Virus record (IMG/VR): IMGVR_UViG_3300025132_000390
Location: 1-20,658 of that record
Source of the DNA: a virus
DNA: 20,658 nt
Reading direction: 5' to 3' (one strand)
In this document: positions 3,134 to 20,451 of the stretch, piece by piece
How positions within the stretch are numbered: position 1 is the stretch's first letter
Layout of the letters: each line of letters begins with the position of its first letter
Translations under genes and position numbers: made by a program
Notes under the pieces: model-generated
What the model was told of the DNA's origin: nothing
Seen by the model: the letters and a program-made list of their open reading frames with translations, nothing else
Databases searched by the model: none

Positions 3134-4405
3134 TTAAAAGTCTAGTTTTACTTTGACTAGAGCCTCTCTTGTAAAGTTTTTCAATAATGGCTGACTTAGT
3201 TTAGCAGTTGCTAACATTTCACGTCTTTCATTATATAAACCTATTGTTGTAATATATACTTGCGGATCTCTAATAAATGACGAATATGCTAATTCACCTA
3301 ATGAACCAGTCACAAATGTTGGATTATTTGAATAATTATATTCTGCATTTTTAACTCTAACAAAATAATAAGTTGATTTAACTTGTTCTGACGATCTTGC
3401 TTGAATACCACCATTTAAATCTGCTGGAGTTATACCATTTGATCCAGATAAGGATGTAAATAATTTCATAGTATTATCACCTTGAACTAGATTACCAGTC
3501 ACCGTTAAAAATCCTGCATGTTCATCTAATGAATCAGCATTAAGAACAGCTATTCCATGTTGTGGATATAACAATCCAAAATAAACTGGATTATCAGGTT
3601 GAAATGCATTATATCCTCCATCTATTGAACCTGAAATTAAATTATAAACTTGTCCTGATTCTCCTACTGCTGCAGATTGTAAACCTGAGTCATCAATAAT
3701 TTGATTCCATAAATTAGATCCATCTAGTTTAACATTTGAACCTGTATGTGCATTAACTGCCTCTGCTCCAAATCCACCTTCTAACATATGAGAACCTGAT
3801 AAATGTGCTAATGTCAATTCAAAATTTCCTGGATCTAATTTTTCTCTAACTCTTGCTCTATTAAAATTTAATACATAAATATGATCCGAATCAACACCAT
3901 TAAATGTAAATTTTCTATCATTAGGTGCTAATAACAATTGTGCATATTGTTTATAAATTGCACGAGACGGCGTATCATTATTTAAATTACCAGTTAAATC
4001 AACAGAACCTGAACCTGCTGAATGGCCATATGCCATAGATAATTCTGAATTAGCTGGAGTTGTAACACCAGGATCTGCAGAACTAAAAATTTCTTGATAA
4101 TATGTTTTTTGAGTTTGAGTTAATAAAGAAGATGTAAACATATTAACAAGACTACCAGTATTATTAAAAAACAATCCTCTTGTTACTGTTTCAATATTAT
4201 TTGGTAATATATCATTATGATGATCAAATTGAGTATAAATTCTTCCTAATCTTGCTCTTTGTGCTGCTGCATCTCTTTCTCGTATAATTTGATCTGCCAA
4301 CGTACGTGCTAACGTTTCTATTTGTGATCTACCACTAGAACCTCGTGCTGGACTTACTCTTGGTCCTCTAAATCTTGGCCTAATACTTCTTCTATATGCT
4401 ACCAT
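3134..4405 (-). CDS. Virion structural protein, probably baseplate or fibre connector (423 aa)
   Basis: Not matched to a named family. The first 35 residues are rich in Arg, Pro and Gly (MVAYRRSIRPRFRGPR...) and look disordered. Residues 27-55 (QIETLARTLADQIIRERDAAAQRARL) form a helix that could trimerise. From about residue 60 the chain is mixed alpha/beta with many SGS/TGS turns, typical of the other appendage proteins here. The last 40 residues, starting YITTIGLY and ending VKLDF, match the C-terminus of the 754-aa protein at 16 of 40 positions. The two probably attach to the same partner or share a capping or folding module. AAAGG and AAAGAA lie upstream of the ATG. The gene is 27 bases after the 216-aa gene and 23 bases before the 754-aa gene, within the run downstream of the gp7/GpI-like protein where fibre genes normally sit. 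Confidence 0.6.
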   Translation of the reverse strand: MVAYRRSIRPRFRGPRVSPARGSSGRSQIETLARTLADQIIRERDAAAQRARLGRIYTQFDHHNDILPNNIETVTRGLFFNNTGSLVNMFTSSLLTQTQKTYYQEIFSSADPGVTTPANSELSMAYGHSAGSGSVDLTGNLNNDTPSRAIYKQYAQLLLAPNDRKFTFNGVDSDHIYVLNFNRARVREKLDPGNFELTLAHLSGSHMLEGGFGAEAVNAHTGSNVKLDGSNLWNQIIDDSGLQSAAVGESGQVYNLISGSIDGGYNAFQPDNPVYFGLLYPQHGIAVLNADSLDEHAGFLTVTGNLVQGDNTMKLFTSLSGSNGITPADLNGGIQARSSEQVKSTYYFVRVKNAEYNYSNNPTFVTGSLGELAYSSFIRDPQVYITTIGLYNERREMLATAKLSQPLLKNFTREALVKVKLDF

Positions 4406-4432: not shown

Positions 4433-5083
4433 TTATCTTGCCGCTGTTACAACTTGTACTTTTTTAACTGTTACTGAAATAGTTGTTCTTCCACCCGTTT
4501 CATTTCCTACAATTAAAATAGTTGCTGATTTATCTGCATCTAAATGTTCTTTTCCTGTTATTTCAAATTCCATACCAGATACTGTTACAGACTGAGCCGC
4601 TTCTGAATCACCAATAAATTGTGGTACAGATGCTGCTGATGCTCCTGCTCTTCGTGTTGCAACAATATCTACAACATCAGAATCTGACAATATTGCAGTA
4701 TATCCAAATCTTCTATTACCTCCTCCAAAGTTAACTGTATTTGGTCTAATTACTGTGCTCTCATTTGCTTCTAATTCTATAGATGTTTGAGATACTCTTA
4801 CTACAGGAATCCTTGCAGATCCTTTTGGTAATGTAACTAGTTTATATCTTAACATTTGAGTTTCATCTGGTAATGCTTCTACAACTGGCATATTTTCAAT
4901 TGCCGAGCCATAAAATGCAGTTCCTAATGGATGATCTGGATTATATAAATCATAATCTACTTCATCATCTGCTAATGCAAATTGTGTTATTCTAAATTCA
5001 TCTCTTCCACGAGCTAACAATTCTCTACCCTTTTTGGTAAGTATTGCATCTACTGTTATTGAATTATTATTTAAGTATCCCAT
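4433..5083 (-). CDS. Conserved-looking tail/baseplate protein of unknown role (216 aa)
   Basis: Begins MGYLNNNSITVDAILTKKG, followed by RELLARG and FRITQFALADDEVDYDLY. This N-terminal pattern is familiar to me from unnamed structural proteins of uncultured marine phages, but I cannot give it a name. The first 120 residues look like one domain. The C-terminal half (about 155-216) is a run of beta strands with alternating Val/Ile/Thr (SVTVSGMEFEITG, TTISVTVKKVQVV) that could be an Ig-like fold. There is no signal peptide or membrane segment. The start is supported by AGGGAA just upstream. The 58-base gap before it is the largest in the window and carries one ATATTTATW motif, so a new transcript may begin or be processed here. 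Its place directly after the giant baseplate protein suggests a role linking baseplate to fibres, which is inference only. Confidence 0.6.
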   Translation of the reverse strand: MGYLNNNSITVDAILTKKGRELLARGRDEFRITQFALADDEVDYDLYNPDHPLGTAFYGSAIENMPVVEALPDETQMLRYKLVTLPKGSARIPVVRVSQTSIELEANESTVIRPNTVNFGGGNRRFGYTAILSDSDVVDIVATRRAGASAASVPQFIGDSEAAQSVTVSGMEFEITGKEHLDADKSATILIVGNETGGRTTISVTVKKVQVVTAAR

Positions 5084-5141: not shown

Positions 5142-8100
5142 TTATCTAATCCTTAAGTTACCAGGTATTCCATCTTGAGGATCTCTTTGGAATATTAATT
5201 GGTTAGGATTAACATTAAACACTTCTACTACTGGATTTCCATCAATAGCAGATACATCTGATCTAACATTGATTCCTGGTCCAGTTAATTTACACCCATT
5301 ATAAAATAAATTTTCTGTTTGTAGAAAATGATCATCCATATATGGAGCAGGTAAATGAGCAGATCTACTAGTATAATTTCCTGGATAAGATTCTACTAGT
5401 TTATGTTTTCTTTGTCCTAAGGTTGGATAAATTGTATCTCTATAACTTCCTTGTGATGAACTAATATATCTTTGATGATCTCTACCTATTTTAGTATCTC
5501 TACCTGTCGTATCTACTGGATGCATAGTATCACCAGCTGGTGCACTTCCACTAAATCCAAAATAAAATGTTTGTTTTTTAAATTCACTACTTTTTCTACA
5601 TTGATCATATACACCATCAATCATATGATCTGTCATGTCATAACACACTTTTTTAACTGTTATAATTGGAACCACTCTATCGAGAGTCACTTCAACACCA
5701 TTTTTAATTGGTAAGCCTGTATCAGATTCTACAGTTAAAAGATTTCTTATAAAAAATTCAACTTGTGGTTTTTTATTTTTTTCTAATTTTATATCTTTAA
5801 AATGAAAACTAGATGTATATCTAGATCTCTCATTGTTTGCATGTGTTACGATTTGCGGATTTGTACTTATTATTTGTTCTGCACCAATTATTCTGGTTTT
5901 AAAAATAGGCGCTGTTTCTGCACTTGCAGTCATAACTTTATACATAGATTCTTCTTGGATTGGTGCACCCGAACCAAAATTTCCATGCTTAGCATATCGT
6001 GGATGATATCCATGTGCATTGTCATATCCATGTGTAGAGTCCATATCTGTTGTTAAAATTCTTGCACCAAATGAAGCAGAAAATGGAGAATTAAATCCTG
6101 ATCCTGCATCGGCTGGTTGAGTATTTAATTCTTCTCCTTGAAACTCAAAAGATATATCTATTACAGTATCATATGATGATCTATATCCTAACATAAATCG
6201 TAAATAATCTGACGTATCTCCCCTATCTGCATCATAATTGCCTGCATATGATGAACTGTTTAAAGTAACTGCAAATTGTTCGTTTTGGTCACCGTACGGA
6301 CCTTGTAATAATAAAGCTCGGCCACCTTGATGTCTTGCACCATTAGGACCTATAGAAATTGTCCCTGGATGTGAATGAAAATAACCTCCTTGGATTGGTC
6401 CATATGGACCTCCTTTACTACGCCATTTACTAAAGACACGACCTTTTGCAACTTGTGCTGCAACACCATCATGGAAATTTTGTCCAGTTAATGAATGTGA
6501 TACTGAATATACAGCTTCGACTGATGCAGTAAACATAGGTGTCATATCTGCTGGAAATACTTCTTTCAAACAATAATCAGCTGATTGAGATGGAGAAGGT
6601 ATAGCTGGTATTTTACCTACATAATCTCCTACATCAGAATAACCTCCAGATCCTGTGTTAAGATGAACAATTGCCTCTGCAATTTTTAATGGTTCTGGAA
6701 TACTTGCTGATAAAGGTAATATAGATGCTGTTACAACTTTGATAGGTTCAGGTATTCTGCCATTAAACATTGGCTCTTCTTTTTGAGGCCTTCTTGTCAG
6801 TATAACTTTTGCTCTTTCTAACGTATGTGGTTCTACTAATAATCCCATAGCTTCATCAACACGTTCTGGTAACAATTGTTTTATTTGATTAAATAATGCA
6901 AAATCAAATTGACTAAATACTCTTAAATAAGCATTAATATCATTTGCATCATTATATTTTTTAAAATATTCAATAGAAAATACATCTAAATCAGGATATT
7001 CCGGTAAGAATTCATCATCAGGATCGCCTACAAAATCGTCTAATGCAACATCACCGACATGATTAAATATTTCTTTGTTTAATTGATCTGCATGAGAATA
7101 AAATAATCCTAATTTATTTGAATCTAATGGTGATAAATCAAAACTTGATCTTTCTGCAGAAGTTAATGGTGATAATTGTTTAAATAATTCATTATTTTCT
7201 AATCTAATTTTTTGAGATTTTGGTAATGTTCCTCCCAATGAAATTCCTTGCACATAATATGTTTCTTCAACTGGTTCATAATTTCCACGTTCTGAATTTA
7301 TAGGAGTTGGAAAATTAGATGCGGTTGCAAATGAATTTGCACCATCATTGTATGCAGGACTAAAATCTTTATATTTGTTTTGAGCTGGATGACTTGATGT
7401 TATAATTGTATCATATGTTCTATCAACAGCAATCATTTCAGTTCCTAATGGATAATGCCTTACCAATGTATCATATGATGCAGTTGGTGAAATTGAAGAT
7501 ACATATGACGTAGGATTCAATGTATGCAGATCAAATGTTTTTTGATCTAATACTTCTATCCATTCTCTATATTCTTGTATAGAACCTGAGAATGTTATTA
7601 TATTGTCAAAACTATTATCTTGCAGACTATGAGACAAATAATTGTTAACTAGTTGTCCACCACCAACAAATCCTGGGCCACCAAATTGACCTCCTAGGAA
7701 TGATTCCATAGCACCACCACCAGTAGATTCATGAACTTGGTTAGATCCTGTATCATAATATACATCCGTCGGATCACCTTCAGCTGCTCCATTCCAAGAA
7801 GCAGTGCTAGAATATGCTCTCCAATGACTAGCAGTTTCTGGTGTTATAGATAAACTTGCTGAATGTACAATTTTACCAGTTATATAATCTGATGCTTGTT
7901 GTACTTGAACATGATATTTTCCAGCTAAATTATCAGCTGCATTTGCTAATGCTAAAAATTCAGCTGTTGGAACAGCACCACTCACATTTAAATTATGTTG
8001 AGGTAATGATGATGTAGGTTGCCAATAATATCTCAAATTCCAAAAATTTCCATCATATATTGGAACCCATGGTGTAGATGCTGTCATTGGCATACCTAAT

Positions 8101-10409
8101 TTTCGAGCTGGATATTTATTAGCTGCTCCATCTGCGTTCGCAAGTGAATTTGGATCGACATTACCTGCTCCTCCTTGCAACAAATGTACTCGACCATATT
8201 TATTACTTCCAGAAAGTGATGATGTATATTCTATATAGATATGAGATACTGGTCGATATTGATGAGTATTTGGAATTCCATCAGCTGTAAAATGTAATGC
8301 ATTTGTCCACATTAACATGCTTGAAGTAGTTCCTGGTTTAAATCTCCATTCTCGCGTTAATGGTGGAAATTCTCCTCTATCTATACCCCATTTAGGTGGA
8401 GTTGTTATACTTGATGAATACCATTGATTAGGAAAATTAATATGATTATTATCTGGCCCTGGTCGGAGTGCACCTCCGTCAGATCTCAATCTTGAACCAG
8501 ATAATTGTAATGAATATGAAAAACGATCTTCTATTAATAATGGAGCATCTTCTCCTACTTTTGGTCCTCCATATTCTCTAATAGAAAGCAAAGTCTGAGG
8601 AATACCATAAGTATTCATGAGTGTCTTTATGGACCTTGCAGTCCCTTTCGTTTTAAGTAAAAACGGTAGATTATTTACTATTCGTCTCCATACTTCAGTT
8701 GTTATAGCTTCATTTGATTTTGAAAACATTGAACCTGTTGATTGATATGATCCGGTTTGATCTGTACCTAATTTATATTTCCACAAATCTTCAGCTTGTT
8801 GTCCATTTGCCAATGTCCATCCTAAAGATTCAGCTATTTGATATAATACCTCTTTACTTTGACCTAATTTAGGTTGATCTTCTGGTTTATATAATCTAGT
8901 TAAATTATCAATATATGAATACAAAATATCATAATGATGTCCAATCATATTAATAAACAAATCATATTGTTCATTATTTGGATCTCTTCGAATATGCTCT
9001 GGTATTGTTTTTACTAATGCATTTTCATTATGTATATCAAATAATGAAGCTGTTTCAATAAAACCATTATACCAATCTTCTGCAAAACTTGATGTAGTAT
9101 GATGTAGTTTATATTTTCCTGTACCATGACTTGATGAAACAAATTTTGGCCAAGGTTCTAATGTATATGGAGCAGCTCCTATTACAGAACCAGAAACACC
9201 ATGAGTAGAAATAGGCCAATGAACTGAACCAGAACCTGGTTCGTTATATAACCATCTTTCAAATCCATCAAATGATCCAATAACATTGTCTTTTCGTTGT
9301 TCATTGATTGCAACATTACCTTGCAATGCACCATCATCATCTCCAGTAGCGGTATTTAATGTTCTAATTTGTTTATCATAATATTCTATCTGCTGTAATT
9401 TATATTTAAAGCCTTCTAGTCTTTCTTTGGCAGATGAGAAATGTACAAAATTTTCAAATGCTGTATAATCAATTCCTATATCAACTCCCATTAATGAACC
9501 TGAAAAAATTGAATCAACAATTTGTTGAGATGTTGATAAATTTGCATCTAATAAATCATTCCATGTTTTATAATCTGTTTCAGTTAATAATCCAAATTGA
9601 TCTGAAACTTCTAGATTTGGTCCTCTTAATACTCTAGGCTCTAAAGCTTCTGCGCCAGGACCAAGTATTTGTATGTTATCAACATATGCATCAGATAATT
9701 CTTCTACAACCCATAAAAAATCTTTTACATTAATTGTATCTGGTATTGGTTGATACATTCGAACAACAAAGTCATTTTCTTCATCCCAATCTTTACAATT
9801 AACAATTTTATAAATTTGATTATCACCAAAATTTAATGCAATATCATCTGACATTGGTCGTTCAATAGTTGCTTTAACAATTGGACGTCCTTGATCATCT
9901 ATGACTTGTATTTCATTTCCTTCATCATCTATAGTTGTTTCGTATACTGTTTCATAGTAATTTTGTTCACCAAATGAATCTAAAAATGCATCTATATTGA
10001 CATCTGCGCCTGGAGATGCTTGTATCCATAACTCTCTACGATCTTCAGATATTTCTTTAACATATAAAGCATCCGCGCCTTCTTCACCGACTACATTTTT
10101 ATGTATGTTAACTACTACTTCAAATTGACCTCTTTCTATGCCCATTTCTCCGGCCGCACCAGCATAATCAATTAATAGTTCATCTTTATCTACTTTATAA
10201 TTTTCTCCTTCAATTGAACCACCAACTATATGTCTTCCTGCTGCGCCTGGTGTATATAAATGTAACTCTACTGTTGGTAATTCTTGTGGTGTTATATTTT
10301 TGGTATCCAACTGTAGAATTGGCTGGTCTTCTACTTTCCATTCAATGCCTCGCATCTTACCGTCGGTAGCTATAATCTGATTTTTATTTGAATATCTATC
10401 TAATGACAT
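5142..10409 (-). CDS. Giant baseplate wedge/tail protein with GpI/gp7-like core and lectin-like modules (1755 aa)
   Basis: Probable wedge component equivalent to P2 GpI/T4 gp7 (gp7 is 1032 aa), partnering the gp6-like protein. The signature lies at about 465-615: HHYDILYSYIDNLTRLY, then EVWRRIVNNLPFLLKTKGTA and a segment ending YGIPQTLLSIREYGG. This is the KGT...YGIP pattern of tail protein I. Residues about 625-985 resemble a ConA-like jelly roll, ending with FSGSIQEYREWIEVLDQKTF. Residues 1090-1210 form another compact block (LDDFVGDP, FALFNQIKQLLPERV, LLVEPHTLERAKV). Residues 1360-1430 look like a second jelly-roll or carbohydrate-binding module (GGRALLLQG...FEFQGEEL), and 1690-1755 is a small beta C-terminal domain. 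There is no signal peptide or membrane segment. AAGGAAG precedes the ATG, 14 bases after the 1002-aa gene. The core call is fairly secure; the lectin modules are read from pattern only. Confidence 0.75.
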   Translation of the reverse strand: MSLDRYSNKNQIIATDGKMRGIEWKVEDQPILQLDTKNITPQELPTVELHLYTPGAAGRHIVGGSIEGENYKVDKDELLIDYAGAAGEMGIERGQFEVVVNIHKNVVGEEGADALYVKEISEDRRELWIQASPGADVNIDAFLDSFGEQNYYETVYETTIDDEGNEIQVIDDQGRPIVKATIERPMSDDIALNFGDNQIYKIVNCKDWDEENDFVVRMYQPIPDTINVKDFLWVVEELSDAYVDNIQILGPGAEALEPRVLRGPNLEVSDQFGLLTETDYKTWNDLLDANLSTSQQIVDSIFSGSLMGVDIGIDYTAFENFVHFSSAKERLEGFKYKLQQIEYYDKQIRTLNTATGDDDGALQGNVAINEQRKDNVIGSFDGFERWLYNEPGSGSVHWPISTHGVSGSVIGAAPYTLEPWPKFVSSSHGTGKYKLHHTTSSFAEDWYNGFIETASLFDIHNENALVKTIPEHIRRDPNNEQYDLFINMIGHHYDILYSYIDNLTRLYKPEDQPKLGQSKEVLYQIAESLGWTLANGQQAEDLWKYKLGTDQTGSYQSTGSMFSKSNEAITTEVWRRIVNNLPFLLKTKGTARSIKTLMNTYGIPQTLLSIREYGGPKVGEDAPLLIEDRFSYSLQLSGSRLRSDGGALRPGPDNNHINFPNQWYSSSITTPPKWGIDRGEFPPLTREWRFKPGTTSSMLMWTNALHFTADGIPNTHQYRPVSHIYIEYTSSLSGSNKYGRVHLLQGGAGNVDPNSLANADGAANKYPARKLGMPMTASTPWVPIYDGNFWNLRYYWQPTSSLPQHNLNVSGAVPTAEFLALANAADNLAGKYHVQVQQASDYITGKIVHSASLSITPETASHWRAYSSTASWNGAAEGDPTDVYYDTGSNQVHESTGGGAMESFLGGQFGGPGFVGGGQLVNNYLSHSLQDNSFDNIITFSGSIQEYREWIEVLDQKTFDLHTLNPTSYVSSISPTASYDTLVRHYPLGTEMIAVDRTYDTIITSSHPAQNKYKDFSPAYNDGANSFATASNFPTPINSERGNYEPVEETYYVQGISLGGTLPKSQKIRLENNELFKQLSPLTSAERSSFDLSPLDSNKLGLFYSHADQLNKEIFNHVGDVALDDFVGDPDDEFLPEYPDLDVFSIEYFKKYNDANDINAYLRVFSQFDFALFNQIKQLLPERVDEAMGLLVEPHTLERAKVILTRRPQKEEPMFNGRIPEPIKVVTASILPLSASIPEPLKIAEAIVHLNTGSGGYSDVGDYVGKIPAIPSPSQSADYCLKEVFPADMTPMFTASVEAVYSVSHSLTGQNFHDGVAAQVAKGRVFSKWRSKGGPYGPIQGGYFHSHPGTISIGPNGARHQGGRALLLQGPYGDQNEQFAVTLNSSSYAGNYDADRGDTSDYLRFMLGYRSSYDTVIDISFEFQGEELNTQPADAGSGFNSPFSASFGARILTTDMDSTHGYDNAHGYHPRYAKHGNFGSGAPIQEESMYKVMTASAETAPIFKTRIIGAEQIISTNPQIVTHANNERSRYTSSFHFKDIKLEKNKKPQVEFFIRNLLTVESDTGLPIKNGVEVTLDRVVPIITVKKVCYDMTDHMIDGVYDQCRKSSEFKKQTFYFGFSGSAPAGDTMHPVDTTGRDTKIGRDHQRYISSSQGSYRDTIYPTLGQRKHKLVESYPGNYTSRSAHLPAPYMDDHFLQTENLFYNGCKLTGPGINVRSDVSAIDGNPVVEVFNVNPNQLIFQRDPQDGIPGNLRIR

Positions 10410-10423
10410 AAATTATTCTTCCT

Positions 10424-13400
10424 TTAAAATGGCATAAAATTATCAAATGTTAATCCACTATGATATTCATTTAATACTTCTTGTGGGCCTCGCGGCCATT
10501 TTATAGCAAATTTCTTTTTCTTTCCTACTTTTTTGTGACATTTCTTTCTTATAAATTGTACTGCATCGTATTGTCTTTTTAATTGATCTTTTAAAAATGC
10601 ATCTATTTCTGCTCTTGTTCCATGCACATAATCTAATAAACCACCTTGCTGAAGAACTTTAAATAATTCTTGCATAGCCTTTAAAAATTCTAAAGATTGT
10701 TGCATATCTTGTAACGATGCAGCTCTTACCATTTGTTCATCAATTTCAAACATCTGATCATGTAATTTATTTATTACTTGTCTTAACCACGGCATATATG
10801 TATCAGCCGTAATTGCTTTATTATATAACTCAGCAATTCTATCTCCACATTCACGATATATACATCCTTTTAAATACCAATTATCTTTCATAAATCTCCA
10901 TGGAGGTAATTTACGTTTTCCATCTGGAACTTCCCCTACTAATGCATCTATTATTACAAATGCAACTCCAACCATAAATCCTACAGGTGTTGCTAATGCC
11001 ATGGTGGCCATAAATGTCGTAGTTAAAATAACAGGCGACATTCCTGCGGCCATAAATGCATTATCAGCTGCTCTTTGAGCTTGCTGTATTTGAGGTGCCA
11101 TAGGACCTTCTATAACTCCTTGAGTTTGTCCATCAAATCCTCCGCCTGCATTTGCCCAACTTGCAAATTTATCTCTTGCAACTGTCTTCATCCATTTAAA
11201 CTTTTTAACTATATCATTTTCTTCTTTTTCTTTCAATCTAGTTCTAAATCTTCCTGCCTTTTTTATCATTTTAAATAGATTTTTTTCAGCTACTTTAGTT
11301 TTAAGTTTTTTCTTTTTCTTTCTTCCTTTTCTTTTAACATATTTCCATTTACCCGACCTTGAAAGCATTACTTTATATAATGGTCCTTTATCACCTAATA
11401 ATTTATTTGCATAGTCAACATAATTTTGTGGCAATGATTCAAATGCAATTTTCATTTGTTCTATTTCTTTTGATAAAACTGGAAATAATTCCATAATTTG
11501 ATCTTTAACTGCATCTATTTGTTCTTGCATTAATGCTTGTTCTGCATATACAGCAAATTTATCTTGATCATAATAATGTATAGAACCAGGCGGTTCAAAA
11601 GGTGCTAAATGTTCTTGTTCAAATGGCAATCCTCCATTGGACCAATAATCTAAATATTCAACATATTCTGCTAAATCAAAACCAACTATACCATCTGTCT
11701 CAGCTTCTACAATATGCGGAAATAGTTCCCATACAGGATGTGGATCATCATCTTCATGTTCTAATACAGATATTGCACCTCCTTGTACTAATAATTGTAT
11801 TAAACCTGTTGGTCCATATCGACCTTCACCAGCTTCATATGCTTCATCAAAATCTAATACTTCATCGCCAATTACTAACGGAGTATCAGGTTCATATTCT
11901 TTCATATCAACACCACGCTTAATAGCATATAATCTTAATGCTGGATTTGATCTTACTTGCTTCCAATGACCCATCACCATTATTCTTGTACCTAATACCC
12001 AGTCATCAGACTTAACTGGTGTTCCTTGTCTAACTTTTTCATCTGAAGCTTGAGAAGCTCTAATTGGAGGCTCATAAGGTAGTCCTGTTTCTGGATCTAT
12101 TTCTAAATATGGTGCAGGCCATCTTGCAATTACCATTTGACCTTCAAACCTTTGCCTCATTTGTTCTCTAGTAGTTTGTCTTAAAAATACTTGATCATAA
12201 TACATATCATCAGGATCATATTTATTCAATAAATCATTTGGCGGTTGATCAGTTGGTTCATTAATTTCTTCTTGTTGTTGGCTATCAGCTCTTTCTTCTC
12301 TTTGTTCACGTACAATACGAGGCAATCCCATTGCACCACGTTCTTCATCTGCTCTTAAACCTCTTTGTCTTGGTCCTCCTTGTGGATTACTAGTATCATT
12401 TAATTCACCAACATCTGGATTTGTTAATTCAGGATATCTTCCTCCTGGCGCACGTAATGATGCAGGTTTTATATAATCTCCTGGATCTCTTTTAAATGGA
12501 AACATTTGTCGATAACCACTTCTAAATCTTACAAAATAATCCCATTCATTTGATCGATCGGCCATAGCCCTTTCCATATATTCTTCTGCAGGAGTTTTTT
12601 CTTGCATATCCTCGTCTGCTTCTTCATTACCAGGATCTGGATTTTCATATTTATCATAATCTTCCGTCGAATCTTTTCCGTCTAATAATAAATCAAATTC
12701 TTTTATTTGATCAGGCGTTGCTTCTGTTATTATATCATATCCATGTCCTTTTTCTACTAACATTACTTCTAATGTTTTATAATTAGGTATAGGACGTGCT
12801 ACGTTATTATGTATATAAAATACACAGAATACATCTTCAAATGCCATATCATCTGCATCTTCTCCACCAGATAGCAAATGTTGAGGCCCTCTAGTTATAT
12901 ATAAATGATGAAAGTCTTCTCTATCTTTTTCTTGATTAACTAAAAATAGTCCTGATATCCCAGGAGGTACTATTTCTTCTGGATCTTCTTCATCTGCATC
13001 TTCAAATGATTCCCATTCTTCATCTATTAGATCATCTAAAACTTCTTCATCAACTGTTGGATACATTTTTTTCATTTCATATGATGTATATTCTTCTTTT
13101 TCAGAATTAATCATAACTATGTTTTTTTCATTACGCTTTGAAATCAACATATCACGTCTAGTTTCTTCAGGTATTGTAAATCCTTCTCTCGTTTGTTGAG
13201 CTTGAGATCCAGGTGTTAATCGACCTGTACTATATAATGGATCATCAGGAAATTCTTCACGCATTATATTTAATAATGTTCGTGATGCATTTGTTTCATT
13301 GGTCGATTCTTCAGACGATTGTGCTGCTATATATCGATTATTTGTTCGACGTCCGTCAGCATTACCAATACCTTGAGATTGGTCTTGTCTGTCTATATAA

Positions 13401-13432
13401 TCTGTATTTCCATCGTCTCTATTTGCTGCCAT
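10424..13432 (-). CDS. Unrecognised large virion-cluster protein with acidic, basic and hydrophobic segments (1002 aa)
   Basis: I do not recognise a family. In order: a polar, probably disordered N-terminus (1-100); a strongly acidic stretch (110-155, with DDLIDEEWESFEDADEEDPE); a possible folded piece with beta character (about 160-245); a Pro/Gln/Glu/Arg-rich linker (320-400); a mixed alpha/beta region (400-600); a helical region (625-690); a Lys/Arg cluster (695-735, KRKGRKKKKKLKTK); a long hydrophobic stretch (799-832, VILTTTFMATMALATPVGFM onward), enough for one or two membrane segments; and a helical C-terminus (850-965) with possible coiled coil. It sits between the DNRLRE-like gene (1-base gap) and the giant gp7/GpI-like gene, so it is probably assembled into or delivered with the baseplate. 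No convincing Shine-Dalgarno precedes the ATG, and coupling to the upstream stop is likely. Candidate roles are an ejected protein, a membrane-interacting baseplate part or a tail chaperone; none is shown. Confidence 0.6.
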   Translation of the reverse strand: MAANRDDGNTDYIDRQDQSQGIGNADGRRTNNRYIAAQSSEESTNETNASRTLLNIMREEFPDDPLYSTGRLTPGSQAQQTREGFTIPEETRRDMLISKRNEKNIVMINSEKEEYTSYEMKKMYPTVDEEVLDDLIDEEWESFEDADEEDPEEIVPPGISGLFLVNQEKDREDFHHLYITRGPQHLLSGGEDADDMAFEDVFCVFYIHNNVARPIPNYKTLEVMLVEKGHGYDIITEATPDQIKEFDLLLDGKDSTEDYDKYENPDPGNEEADEDMQEKTPAEEYMERAMADRSNEWDYFVRFRSGYRQMFPFKRDPGDYIKPASLRAPGGRYPELTNPDVGELNDTSNPQGGPRQRGLRADEERGAMGLPRIVREQREERADSQQQEEINEPTDQPPNDLLNKYDPDDMYYDQVFLRQTTREQMRQRFEGQMVIARWPAPYLEIDPETGLPYEPPIRASQASDEKVRQGTPVKSDDWVLGTRIMVMGHWKQVRSNPALRLYAIKRGVDMKEYEPDTPLVIGDEVLDFDEAYEAGEGRYGPTGLIQLLVQGGAISVLEHEDDDPHPVWELFPHIVEAETDGIVGFDLAEYVEYLDYWSNGGLPFEQEHLAPFEPPGSIHYYDQDKFAVYAEQALMQEQIDAVKDQIMELFPVLSKEIEQMKIAFESLPQNYVDYANKLLGDKGPLYKVMLSRSGKWKYVKRKGRKKKKKLKTKVAEKNLFKMIKKAGRFRTRLKEKEENDIVKKFKWMKTVARDKFASWANAGGGFDGQTQGVIEGPMAPQIQQAQRAADNAFMAAGMSPVILTTTFMATMALATPVGFMVGVAFVIIDALVGEVPDGKRKLPPWRFMKDNWYLKGCIYRECGDRIAELYNKAITADTYMPWLRQVINKLHDQMFEIDEQMVRAASLQDMQQSLEFLKAMQELFKVLQQGGLLDYVHGTRAEIDAFLKDQLKRQYDAVQFIRKKCHKKVGKKKKFAIKWPRGPQEVLNEYHSGLTFDNFMPF

Positions 13433-13433
13433 T

Positions 13434-14606
13434 TTAATTCACTACTTTAAAATAAAAATCATCAAATGTTTGTATATCATTACCACCATCTCTTTCTACC
13501 TTTAACATTATTTTATAAAATCTTTCAGGCATAAATGAATCCATTCTTAATTTAAAGAAACTTCCATTTGAATCGCCATCAATTCGAGTTGCATTTTTTT
13601 GTTCTCCTGAACCTGTTGCATCAAATGGTATTATAATTTCATTAGTTACTGAATCAATAATACTATAATAACTTGATGTTGGTAATCTTTCTCCTGTTAA
13701 AAAGAAAGAAGATGTTTGAAATGCTTTATTAGGAAATTCTGGCCGAACACCAATTCTAAATTTTGCAATTTCAGACATTCTATATTCATCCTTTATATTT
13801 TTAAAATAAGGAACATATGTATCAGATGAGATTTCTGTTAAATTAAGATATGTAGATTCGGATGGATAATCTCCTATACCTGTAAAAACAACTTCTAGTC
13901 TAGGTACAAATATTGTATGAGATTCTCTACCAAAGAATTTTATTGAACCTAATATATCACTATTTGTTTCATTTTCATATGTATGTTTTACTAAAAATCC
14001 ATTATTTGCATTTGAGCCACTCTTTAACCAATAATTCATTATATCAGTTACGTTCATTCTGATATCTGGAGATTCATTTTGGAATGACTGACTTGCTTCA
14101 AATCCAGAACCAGTAATCCATGTCCCACCTCCTTGTACTTCTGTCAATCCTGTTTGACCATTGCTATGTGCATTATCAATGTCCCATCTATTTACTTGGT
14201 CACGTGATCGATAAAACCATGATGCTCCATTTTTTGTAATAGGATCGTCTGAATAATTTCCATTTCCATTTACCCATGATTGAGATACTGGAAAAGCTTT
14301 TATTTCATATGAATGTAATAAATCGGATGCATCAGCTGCTTTTATATTAAGATATACAGATGCAGAACGTGGATGATTAGCTAATGGTGGTATTTCTCCA
14401 TTTAAAATAGATTGAGATATCGACGTTACTTCAGATCCAAAATCAATTAAAAATCTTGAATTATATTGATTTGTTTGTACAAGGCCATTTAATTTAGATC
14501 CAGAAGCTATTTTAGTAAGTTCTAGTATTTGATCAATACCAGTATTTTGTGATGGATATTGTTCATATAATGTTGTATCTCTTTCTGCGTAATATATTCT
14601 AAACAT
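13434..14606 (-). CDS. DNRLRE-like baseplate-associated protein (390 aa)
   Basis: The N-terminal ~245 residues resemble DNRLRE-type beta domains known from secreted and surface proteins. Visible elements are AERDTTLYEQYPSQNTG (7-23), RFLIDFG (51-57), ASVYLNIKA (82-90), IKAFPVSQSWVNGNG (102-116), and MNVTDIMNYWLKSGSNANNG (184-203). The last element matches the family's V...W..G...N.G signature. FFGRES and PRLEVVF then close the domain. Residues 250-390 form a second beta-rich domain (YFKNIKDEYRMSEIAKFRIGV onward), perhaps Ig-like. There is no signal peptide, as expected for a virion protein. It follows the gp6-like gene by 10 bases with AAGGGA before the ATG, and precedes the 1002-aa gene by one base. 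It may decorate the wedge or bind carbohydrate. T4 and P2 have no known equivalent at this position. Confidence 0.6.
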   Translation of the reverse strand: MFRIYYAERDTTLYEQYPSQNTGIDQILELTKIASGSKLNGLVQTNQYNSRFLIDFGSEVTSISQSILNGEIPPLANHPRSASVYLNIKAADASDLLHSYEIKAFPVSQSWVNGNGNYSDDPITKNGASWFYRSRDQVNRWDIDNAHSNGQTGLTEVQGGGTWITGSGFEASQSFQNESPDIRMNVTDIMNYWLKSGSNANNGFLVKHTYENETNSDILGSIKFFGRESHTIFVPRLEVVFTGIGDYPSESTYLNLTEISSDTYVPYFKNIKDEYRMSEIAKFRIGVRPEFPNKAFQTSSFFLTGERLPTSSYYSIIDSVTNEIIIPFDATGSGEQKNATRIDGDSNGSFFKLRMDSFMPERFYKIMLKVERDGGNDIQTFDDFYFKVVN

Positions 14607-14616
14607 AATTTATCCC

Positions 14617-16470
14617 TTAAGGTTTAATAGCTTTTATTCTTATATCCGCATTTGGATATTTAATTTCAAATATCATTGGATCTAATGATGGATATATAAT
14701 TCCATTTTTTGTAGCGGATGGAATATCATAAATTGTATTAGCATATCTACCACCTATTTTATTTACAAATTCTAAATTTGGTACACTTTGAACACCTTCT
14801 ACTGAATTCATTTCTCCCATAATTGCATTAGTATCTAATGGTCCATTTATTTGCATACGATCTGCATGTAATATAATTTTTAATCTTTCAATACATCGTA
14901 ATATTACTTCATTACTATTATACGATGGCTTAGGTATAACTTCACCTTCGATTTGAATATTAACAATAAATGCAGTTTTAACATTAATTGCATCTGTTAA
15001 TAATCTATATTGTGATAAATATGTTCTAACATTTTCACGTAATGCTTGATTAGGAGCTACAAAATATCCATTTGAATCTTGAGCAAGTAAATATAAATTT
15101 AAACCTAATGGATTGGAAATAGTATCTCTAGGATAATCTTTATCTGCTGTATCTAATTGAATATCTCCAACAATATATGCCTTTGCTATTGTACCAAATT
15201 TAGAAGGCATGGCAAATATTCTTGAAATATAATCTTCACGTGTAATACATCTTTGCTGAGCACCAAATGTTGCAATTGCATTTTGTCTTATTTCTTCTAA
15301 GTCTTGTTTAGATCCACCTCCTACTGCTGGAAATGTATTAGTAATTGCAACTGAATTTTTTGAATCTTCAAGATTAACTTGGCCAAAATCATTTGTATAA
15401 TTTACTTCATCAATTTGTGTAATTGCATTGACTCCAACATTTTCAGCTATAGCTCCTCCTATAGTATATTTTACAGTCAATGATGTATTCATAGGAGCTA
15501 ATCCATATGTACTTGTATATAAAAAGTTAGTTGGATCTATATTATCAGTAGTAGTTCGTTTTAAATATTCTAATCCAGAACCAACATTTTTTGGATTAGG
15601 AATTATTTCTTCATCAGCATTTGATGAAATACCTGAACCAAATTGCAATTCAACTCGATTATCATCTCTTACTCGTACAACAAATCTTCGAGCTGTTCTT
15701 CTTAATTTTAAAATATAAGGTACTGTTGATCTATATTGAGATAGATCTGGATCATTAAATGGAATATTTGCAATATCTTGCATAATAGTATCTTGTGCTA
15801 AATAATCAACTTCAGCCCACTCATTACCTTGTTCGTCAGTCACACTTATAATATCAATGACATTCTCTTCTGGTAGTACAATTTTATCATAAGGTTTTGG
15901 ATCATTAAAGGCATACTCTGTTTCTTTCATTTCACCAGAAACTATAGTTATTTGTTTTTTAAGAAGATATCTTGCAATATCACCAGAACCATTTATTTCG
16001 TATACAGTTATTTCAGGATTTTGATTAAAATCTACAGGACCTGTTGTATGAAATCTAATTCCCTGGTCACTTGCTACTAACATGTTTTCTTTTATTGTCA
16101 ATGCATAATCCATATCTGGTTCTGCATTAGCACCAGTGCCTTTAGCTGGTACTAATTGAAATACATCCAATTTACATGTAGCTGGTGCATTTCGTCTTGG
16201 TTTATATCCAAATAATTGAGATAATCCTAAAATATTATGACTTTCTTGTGCTCTTGATAATAATGATTCTCTAAATGATGAATCTGTATAATATGATAAA
16301 ACATCTCCTACGTAAGCAGACATTTCCATAAACATCATACCAGGGGATGATTCATTAAAATCTTGATATGTTTTTGGAAAATAATTTTTTGCAAAATTTA
16401 TTAAGTTTTGTCTAAATTGTGCAAAGTCTTTATTTAAATAGTTAACATCTTTTTTCACTAAATTTGCCAT
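14617..16470 (-). CDS. 6: Baseplate wedge protein, T4 gp6/P2 GpJ-like (617 aa)
   Basis: Core wedge subunit that, with gp7 and gp25 equivalents, forms the inner ring of the contractile-tail baseplate. Length is close to T4 gp6 (660 aa). The N-terminus has the expected pattern: a helical start, then FNESSPGMMFMEMSAYVGDV (38-57), LSYYTDSSFRESLLSRAQ and LSQLFGYKPRR (83-93). The middle carries the conserved FVVRVRDDNRVELQFGSG (263-280). Next comes the GpJ-like core: AVGGGSKQDLEEIRQNA (382-398), QQRCITREDYISRIFAMP (405-422) and AKAYIVGD (429-436). The C-terminus has VNIQIEGEVIPKP and the helix/turn around IERLKIILHADRMQINGPLD (527-546). The start is set by a strong AGGAG 6 bases before the ATG, immediately after the stop of the gp25-like gene. 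Position between gp25-like and GpI-like genes fits the family order. Confidence 0.88.
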   Translation of the reverse strand: MANLVKKDVNYLNKDFAQFRQNLINFAKNYFPKTYQDFNESSPGMMFMEMSAYVGDVLSYYTDSSFRESLLSRAQESHNILGLSQLFGYKPRRNAPATCKLDVFQLVPAKGTGANAEPDMDYALTIKENMLVASDQGIRFHTTGPVDFNQNPEITVYEINGSGDIARYLLKKQITIVSGEMKETEYAFNDPKPYDKIVLPEENVIDIISVTDEQGNEWAEVDYLAQDTIMQDIANIPFNDPDLSQYRSTVPYILKLRRTARRFVVRVRDDNRVELQFGSGISSNADEEIIPNPKNVGSGLEYLKRTTTDNIDPTNFLYTSTYGLAPMNTSLTVKYTIGGAIAENVGVNAITQIDEVNYTNDFGQVNLEDSKNSVAITNTFPAVGGGSKQDLEEIRQNAIATFGAQQRCITREDYISRIFAMPSKFGTIAKAYIVGDIQLDTADKDYPRDTISNPLGLNLYLLAQDSNGYFVAPNQALRENVRTYLSQYRLLTDAINVKTAFIVNIQIEGEVIPKPSYNSNEVILRCIERLKIILHADRMQINGPLDTNAIMGEMNSVEGVQSVPNLEFVNKIGGRYANTIYDIPSATKNGIIYPSLDPMIFEIKYPNADIRIKAIKP

Positions 16471-16480
16471 TGTTTATCTC

Positions 16481-17164
16481 CTAATATCCTCCTCCGCCGC
16501 CTCCGCCGCCGCCGCCTCCGCCGCCGCCAAATGAGGTAACACCTGTTCCTGCTGTTATTGTTTCAGTTGCTGATCCTAAATCAAAAGTAGATCCCGCACC
16601 TACCTCGCCAACAGCTACTAATTCTTCACCAGTATCTGGTTCTGCATCACTTACAATTAATTCATTTTCTGATAATAATATATTAATTACCATTTCAGAA
16701 CCTAAGGTAGTTACTTGAAAATGTAATCTCATACTTATTGAATGCATATCAGCACTATTTACTATATCAACTTGTTGAACTCGTATATAAGGTAACCAGA
16801 ATGCAATATCTTCATTTAATGTATCTTCTAATTGTGTTCTTAAATCTTCTGTATTATTATCAAATAATATTTCTCTAATTCTAGTACCAAAATTAGGTTG
16901 CATATATCTTTCACCCTTATATGTCATTAATAAATTTTTTAAATTTGATAATGATTGTTCTTCAGTTGAATATGTTTGAGTAAAAACTCCAGTACCACCA
17001 GCAGATCCGGAAGCGTAACTTCCTACATCACCAAATGTTGCAGATCTAAAAAAATCTGTATGAGCTCTCGATGATTTATTAAAAGGTAATGGAACGCCTA
17101 TAGCTACATCAGGCGTTTCATTAATTGGTTGATATTGATATACTGGTCGTTTTTTTAGTGCCAT
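16481..17164 (-). CDS. 25: Baseplate wedge protein, gp25/GpW family, with poly-glycine tail (227 aa)
   Basis: Wedge component that contacts the gp6 equivalent and connects baseplate to sheath in contractile tails. The GPW_gp25 domain lies at about 72-165: LSNLKNLLMTYKGERYMQP (72-90), NFGTRIREILFDNN (91-104), LRTQLEDTLNEDIAFWLPYI (108-127) and a following strand VQQVDIVN. T4 gp25 is 132 aa. Here there are about 70 extra N-terminal residues, including a Gly/Ser-rich segment (SYASGSAGGTG), and a C-terminal extension (about 175-227) ending in 14 consecutive Gly and a final Tyr. The start overlaps the preceding stop as TAATG, so translation is probably coupled; only weak purine-rich sequence serves as an SD. 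The Gly tail is GC-rich within an AT-rich gene. Confidence 0.88.
   Translation of the reverse strand: MALKKRPVYQYQPINETPDVAIGVPLPFNKSSRAHTDFFRSATFGDVGSYASGSAGGTGVFTQTYSTEEQSLSNLKNLLMTYKGERYMQPNFGTRIREILFDNNTEDLRTQLEDTLNEDIAFWLPYIRVQQVDIVNSADMHSISMRLHFQVTTLGSEMVINILLSENELIVSDAEPDTGEELVAVGEVGAGSTFDLGSATETITAGTGVTSFGGGGGGGGGGGGGGY
16487..16528 (-). repeat. GGN triplet tract encoding 14 glycines
   Basis: Forty-two bases consist only of GGC (9) and GGA (5) codons in the last part of the gp25-like gene, just before Tyr and TAG. The tract stands out sharply in base composition from its AT-rich surroundings. Such near-perfect triplet runs can change length by slippage. The final GGA codons also resemble Shine-Dalgarno cores, but they lie too far from the next ATG to be its main site. 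Confidence 0.9.
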
Positions 17165-20166: not shown

Positions 20167-20451
20167 TTAAAATCCCTTATTTAAATCATCGTAAATATCC
20201 TTAAGTTCTTTAAAGGCAAATCCAGTTTCATCATCTGCTTCAAATGATCCTAATCGATCGATTTGTTTTAATTTTGAATTTGATTCGCCAATTTGAGTTT
20301 TTAATTTTTGAAAAAATGTATAATATTCAGTATTTGAATTTTCTAATTCTTCAATATATTCAGATTGTGATTCTTGTTTTCTTAATTGATTAATATTAAC
20401 AAATATTGATATTAATAATATTACTGATAAGATTATAATAGTTGTTATCAT
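20167..20451 (-). CDS. Small protein with one N-terminal membrane segment (94 aa)
   Basis: Residues 3-22 are hydrophobic (TTIIILSVILLISIFVNI) and probably span the inner membrane. They are followed by a helical, coiled-coil-prone region (25-65: QLRKQESQSEYIEELENSN and onward). The C-terminal half includes LKQIDRLGSFEADDETGFAF (61-80), which looks conserved and reminds me of unnamed T4-like phage proteins. There is no signal-peptidase site or lipobox. A clear GGAG precedes the ATG by 8 bases. The start overlaps the upstream stop as ATGA, and the stop abuts the gp55-like start, so three genes are translationally linked. An inner-membrane spanin subunit has this layout too, but no partner is present and the conserved acidic C-terminus argues against it. 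Function unknown. Confidence 0.65.
   Translation of the reverse strand: MITTIIILSVILLISIFVNINQLRKQESQSEYIEELENSNTEYYTFFQKLKTQIGESNSKLKQIDRLGSFEADDETGFAFKELKDIYDDLNKGF

Follow-up and report, generated by a model that had tools for sequence, protein, structure and literature searches.

The window analyzed here spans the 20,658 bases of a virus record, and in it the genes discussed all lie on the minus strand, in the order gp25, gp6, a 390-amino-acid (aa) protein (U390), a 1002-aa protein (the target) and a 1755-aa protein. The gp25-like baseplate wedge protein (16481 to 17164) matched PHROG 261 and 43, baseplate wedge subunit, and the gp6-like wedge protein (14617 to 16470) matched PHROG 219 at 4.6e-21 and aligned to T4 gp6 at 97.4% in hhalign. 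U390 (13434 to 14606) belongs to no named family and is conserved across the baseplate clusters of Far-T4-type phages and of Microcystis phage Mel-JY01 and Flavobacterium phage immuto, being 35% and 32% identical to the Mel-JY01 and immuto proteins, respectively; its N-terminal pattern may resemble a DNRLRE-like sandwich. The 1755-aa downstream neighbor (5142 to 10409) is conserved in position, and Mel-JY01, immuto and the phage LR756508 encode counterparts at the equivalent site. The first-pass annotation had set the target between a gp6 and a gp7/GpI-like gene; the gp6 assignment held, but U390 separates the target from gp6, and the gp7/GpI label found no support in PHROGs, Pfam or PDB sequences, nor against a three-sequence T4-type gp7 profile (hhalign, 0.1%).

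The target is encoded by an uninterrupted open reading frame (ORF) with an ATG start (10424 to 13432). It was 41 to 57% identical to its relatives in IMG/VR, and dN/dS in three pairs of relatives ranged from 0.07 to 0.16, with low values in the N- and C-terminal halves alike, indicating purifying selection. Thus, the target is a real, selected gene and not a chance ORF. It had been described as lacking a recognizable family, and indeed nothing was found in Pfam, PHROGs, NCBIfam or PDB sequences, and the matches from a PDB profile search consisted almost entirely of coiled-coil or helical segments. INPHARED phages held no relative of the target or of two divergent members used as queries, no cultured phage carrying the family was found, and searches of cellular genomes confirmed no relative. 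Two alignment-based scans of IMG/VR with different queries retrieved overlapping sets of 127 and 146 relatives, giving a family of more than 120 relatives there; seven large contigs carried one family match each. Distinct full-length members numbered 82, of which 64 were long and 18 were of 322 to 367 aa.

The full target was modeled with AlphaFold using 80 relatives (pLDDT 79.5, pTM 0.66), and model and alignment together delimited its parts. Residues 1 to 46 (13295 to 13432) form a predicted disordered N-terminus (pLDDT below 50), which varies in length in the family and is mostly gapped in the alignment. It is followed by an N-terminal core, about residues 46 to 622 (11567 to 13297), that all members share, the short forms among them, and that is interrupted in the target by a predicted disordered insertion (residues 343 to 394, 12251 to 12406; pLDDT mostly below 50), which is absent from most relatives and shows mostly as gaps in them. 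Modeled alone, as the short member that corresponds to it, the core was predicted to be an alpha/beta protein (pLDDT 85, pTM 0.78); an internal beta-beta-alpha repeat within it, suggested by secondary structure, was unsupported by hhalign. The C-terminal module (residues 623 to 1002, 10427 to 11566), lacking in 18 of the 82 distinct full-length relatives, was modeled as a set of long helices, among them those of residues 851 to 969 (10526 to 10882), and ends in a conserved motif (residues 962 to 998, 10439 to 10549; RKK...KFAIKWPRGPQEVLNEY..GLTFDN), a loose pattern of which was found in 57 of the 64 long members. The compositional features reported by the first-pass annotation were reproduced at their positions: the N-terminal third is acidic (residues 1 to 330, net charge −41), a Lys/Arg cluster occupies codons 695 to 735 (11228 to 11350; net +19 in 41 residues) and is K/R-rich in most long members, and a hydrophobic stretch spans codons 799 to 832 (10937 to 11038), with a Kyte-Doolittle 19-residue mean (KD19) of 2.15. 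This stretch lies in the target's longest uncharged run (38 residues), within a variable loop that connects the basic region to the long helices; confidence in the model was low here (pLDDT below 50 at residues 805 to 832). The strongest membrane-like segment of the window is found elsewhere, at the start of a 94-aa ORF (20167 to 20451; KD19 2.74 at residue 2). One relative, a 1162-aa protein (L221:4423-7911), carries at its end, from about residue 1006, a Hint-like autoprocessing domain that matched Pfam Vint with an E value of 3.5e-5, below the curated cut-off; no such domain was seen in the other family members scanned against Pfam.

The phages that carry this family were traced through gp23. 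Since the Pfam model of gp23 matched nothing, controls included, the protein of Rhodothermus phage RM378 was used as the query, and three of the seven large family contigs, which are partial records, were found to encode a gp23 major capsid protein 43 to 49% identical to that of RM378. Thus, the host phages of the family are Far-T4 phages where this could be tested, the window itself stopping short of gp23. Two other proteins of the window (3134 to 4405 and 4433 to 5083) are distant homologues of RM378 proteins (2e-15 and 1e-9), whereas cultured RM378 itself has no detectable member of the target family and no match to this gp6 profile. Far-T4 phages occur widely in fresh and marine waters, and links to Flavobacteriales and other Bacteroidetes have been reported (PMC4360716, PMC7198788, PMC13037479). 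The target family is a conserved, previously unnamed family that uncultured aquatic Far-T4 phages encode in their tail-baseplate gene cluster.

The placement of the target in a baseplate gene cluster, also claimed at first pass, proved firm. All related contigs that were long enough shared one gene order. U390 was present in 210 loci and a 1755-aa-type neighbor in 153, and the sole break across these was one small extra ORF of 165 aa, located between the target and the 1755-aa-type gene in two contigs (L139:10994-11491, and also L141). Loci were also collected with U390 alone, which makes for a less biased test of gene order: in all 74 of these loci with enough sequence the next gene was a family member, the sample being the non-random 80 closest to the U390 query among 585 found. 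The gene thus lies within the gp25-gp6 wedge block, as would be expected of a T4-type baseplate wedge component. As with the proteins of the T4-type wedge (gp25, gp6, gp7, gp8), the target gene shares a single collinear block with homologues of gp25 and gp6; unlike in that wedge, two extra proteins, U390 and the target, come between gp6 and the next large gene.

The cultured phages Mel-JY01 and immuto and the uncultured phage LR756508 share the order gp6, U390 homologue, a slot and a 1755-aa-type protein, and in Mel-JY01 and immuto an annotated gp25-type gene stands immediately upstream of gp6. They differ in the slot that the target occupies in the window, which holds an unrelated-looking 413-aa protein in Mel-JY01 (L006:17044-18285), an unrelated-looking 112-aa protein in immuto (L007:16916-17254) and just a 226-bp gap in LR756508. 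Such a wedge can therefore do without the target. The 413-aa and 112-aa proteins were considered as target homologues and rejected, since no similarity was detectable, including by hhalign; both end, by eye, in a coiled-coil-like segment, and no relatives of the 413-aa protein were retrieved from IMG/VR. A literature search returned no virion proteomics of immuto and no paper on Mel-JY01.

Variation within the family centers on the C-terminal module. The first six short forms examined align to the target from about residue 75 to residue 622 and end just past an EPxGSxxYY motif. A tree of gp6 plus U390 groups its four short members in a single clade (support, 1.0), nested among long members, and the module was thus most simply lost in the short clade. 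No homologue of the module was found elsewhere in the contigs of the short members, which are incomplete. Three long members (L130, L141 and L221) were missed by the module's profile, and by eye they appear to keep a diverged form of the terminal motif. The contigs of the short clade (L104, L098, L114 and others) also have the shortest 1755-aa-type neighbors (1178 to 1249 aa versus mostly 1247 to 1786 aa), a difference that is confounded by phylogeny and by possible miscalls of start sites.

We consider it probable that the target serves as a structural part of the baseplate wedge of Far-T4 phages, made up of an invariant core and an accessory helical arm. Judging from gene order, the protein is likely to be present in the virion. 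As a wedge part, it would dock through its N-terminal core onto U390 and the 1755-aa protein and be obligatory there, while the C-terminal module would form a helical arm that packs against its copies in neighboring wedges or against peripheral parts, with the hydrophobic loop, where present, buried in the contact made by the arm. The arm would be an accessory, given that one clade is without it and that about half of the members lack hydrophobicity in the loop. Two results weigh against this reading, namely that the target matched no baseplate protein in sequence or fold and that the related phages Mel-JY01, immuto and LR756508 have no family member in the slot.

The hydrophobic loop invites another reading, in which contraction exposes or ejects the helical module and the basic patch and loop insert into the host membrane and aid the passage of DNA, and it had led the first-pass annotation to propose action through membrane segments. 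In favor of it, 28 of the 57 members examined had a loop KD19 of 1.6 or more, and uncharged runs there extended to as many as 105 residues; in the remaining members the loop is short, charged, Pro/Thr-rich or mildly hydrophobic. When the loop was scored as hydrophobic, not hydrophobic or short, parsimony on the tree required at least 9 state changes, as against a mean of 20 and a minimum of 14 for shuffled labels, so that the trait follows lineages yet changes repeatedly. A membrane segment was thus not conserved across the family, in which about half of the members have no hydrophobic loop and 18 of 82 have no module at all. The same KD19 scan applied to gp7 as a control gave 2.07 for T4 and 1.84 for Acinetobacter phage 133. 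T4 gp7, which resembles the target in being large and in having a hydrophobic stretch in its C-terminal part, bears in the T4 record the label of a predicted integral membrane domain at its C terminus, yet it is a rigid wedge protein. Hence, little can be concluded about membrane function from a hydrophobic peak in a wedge protein.

The same reading likens the module to tape-measure or helical pore-forming proteins. Seven members weakly matched a tape-measure PHROG (best, 2.2e-4) over the hydrophobic part and the helices that follow, and the helical part was weakly similar to helical pore-forming proteins in VIA (Z 3.0 to 4.0), which is within the stated noise of the tool: unrelated long helices commonly score below a Z of about 13. 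The family is like the tape-measure proteins and the tape-measure-related contractile-injection effectors (PMC13277306) in this weak match and in having a hydrophobic segment followed by helices, and is unlike them in that its conserved part is an alpha/beta core and its helical half is dispensable. Overall, a membrane-active arm working in the manner of tape-measure or pore-forming proteins appears unlikely. Less likely still is the wider version in which an invariant docking core bears a helical module that can be exchanged, and the module's variable hydrophobic loop acts on the host envelope on contraction; we regard as similarly doubtful the extension of that version to the Hint-like autoprocessing domain added in one relative; to our knowledge, delivery by an arm of this kind has not been described for T4-type baseplates. 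As far as the sequences indicate, insertion or ejection as a function shared by the whole family is not supported, whereas ejection or membrane contact may be possible for some members with a hydrophobic loop. Since the helical tail is dispensable and the greasy stretch occurs in about half of the relatives, the target is probably a structural part and not a dedicated membrane-piercing protein.

A structural part could also be a known one in disguise, that is, a homologue of a wedge protein such as T4 gp53, gp8 or part of gp7 that is so distant or rearranged as to lie beyond the reach of our searches. The wedge position is compatible with this, and T4 wedges hold several proteins besides gp6 and gp25. 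However, both halves of the target gave at most 0.3% in hhalign against small profiles (2 to 3 sequences) of T4-type gp5 to gp11 and gp53, a lack of similarity that sets the target apart from the T4-type wedge proteins tested. Foldseek and VIA searches with the full model and the core returned nothing above noise among solved or viral structures; no baseplate protein was among the PDB matches listed, no gp7, gp8 or gp53 fold was listed for the target, which does not prove that its fold differs from theirs, and no PDB match of the core model exceeded Z 2.8. The first-pass annotation had named, as a result that would speak against its proposal, a confident match in structure to a known baseplate protein; such a match was sought with these tools and none was found. 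Such homology is, in our estimate, improbable. The absence of a match for a predicted core does not, in turn, show that its fold is new.

T4-type phages encode assembly chaperones alongside structural tail proteins, and the target could accordingly be an assembly factor or chaperone that the baseplate cluster encodes but that stays out of the virion. We regard this as very unlikely, because a large size, a strongly conserved core and a fixed place among structural genes are more usual for a structural part. That the target is the tail tape-measure protein itself, as its helical C-terminal half with a hydrophobic stretch and the weak PHROG matches of some relatives might suggest, is scarcely credible, since a tape measure is mostly a long helical protein whose length sets that of the tail, whereas 18 members of only 322 to 367 aa do without the helical half and the conserved part is modeled as an alpha/beta core instead of a long helix.

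The machinery by which Far-T4 phages attach to their hosts is little known. The target family is a conserved, Far-T4-associated baseplate-cluster protein whose modeled core matched nothing found among the structures searched, and its relatives with and without the predicted helical arm offer a natural comparison for the role of the arm.
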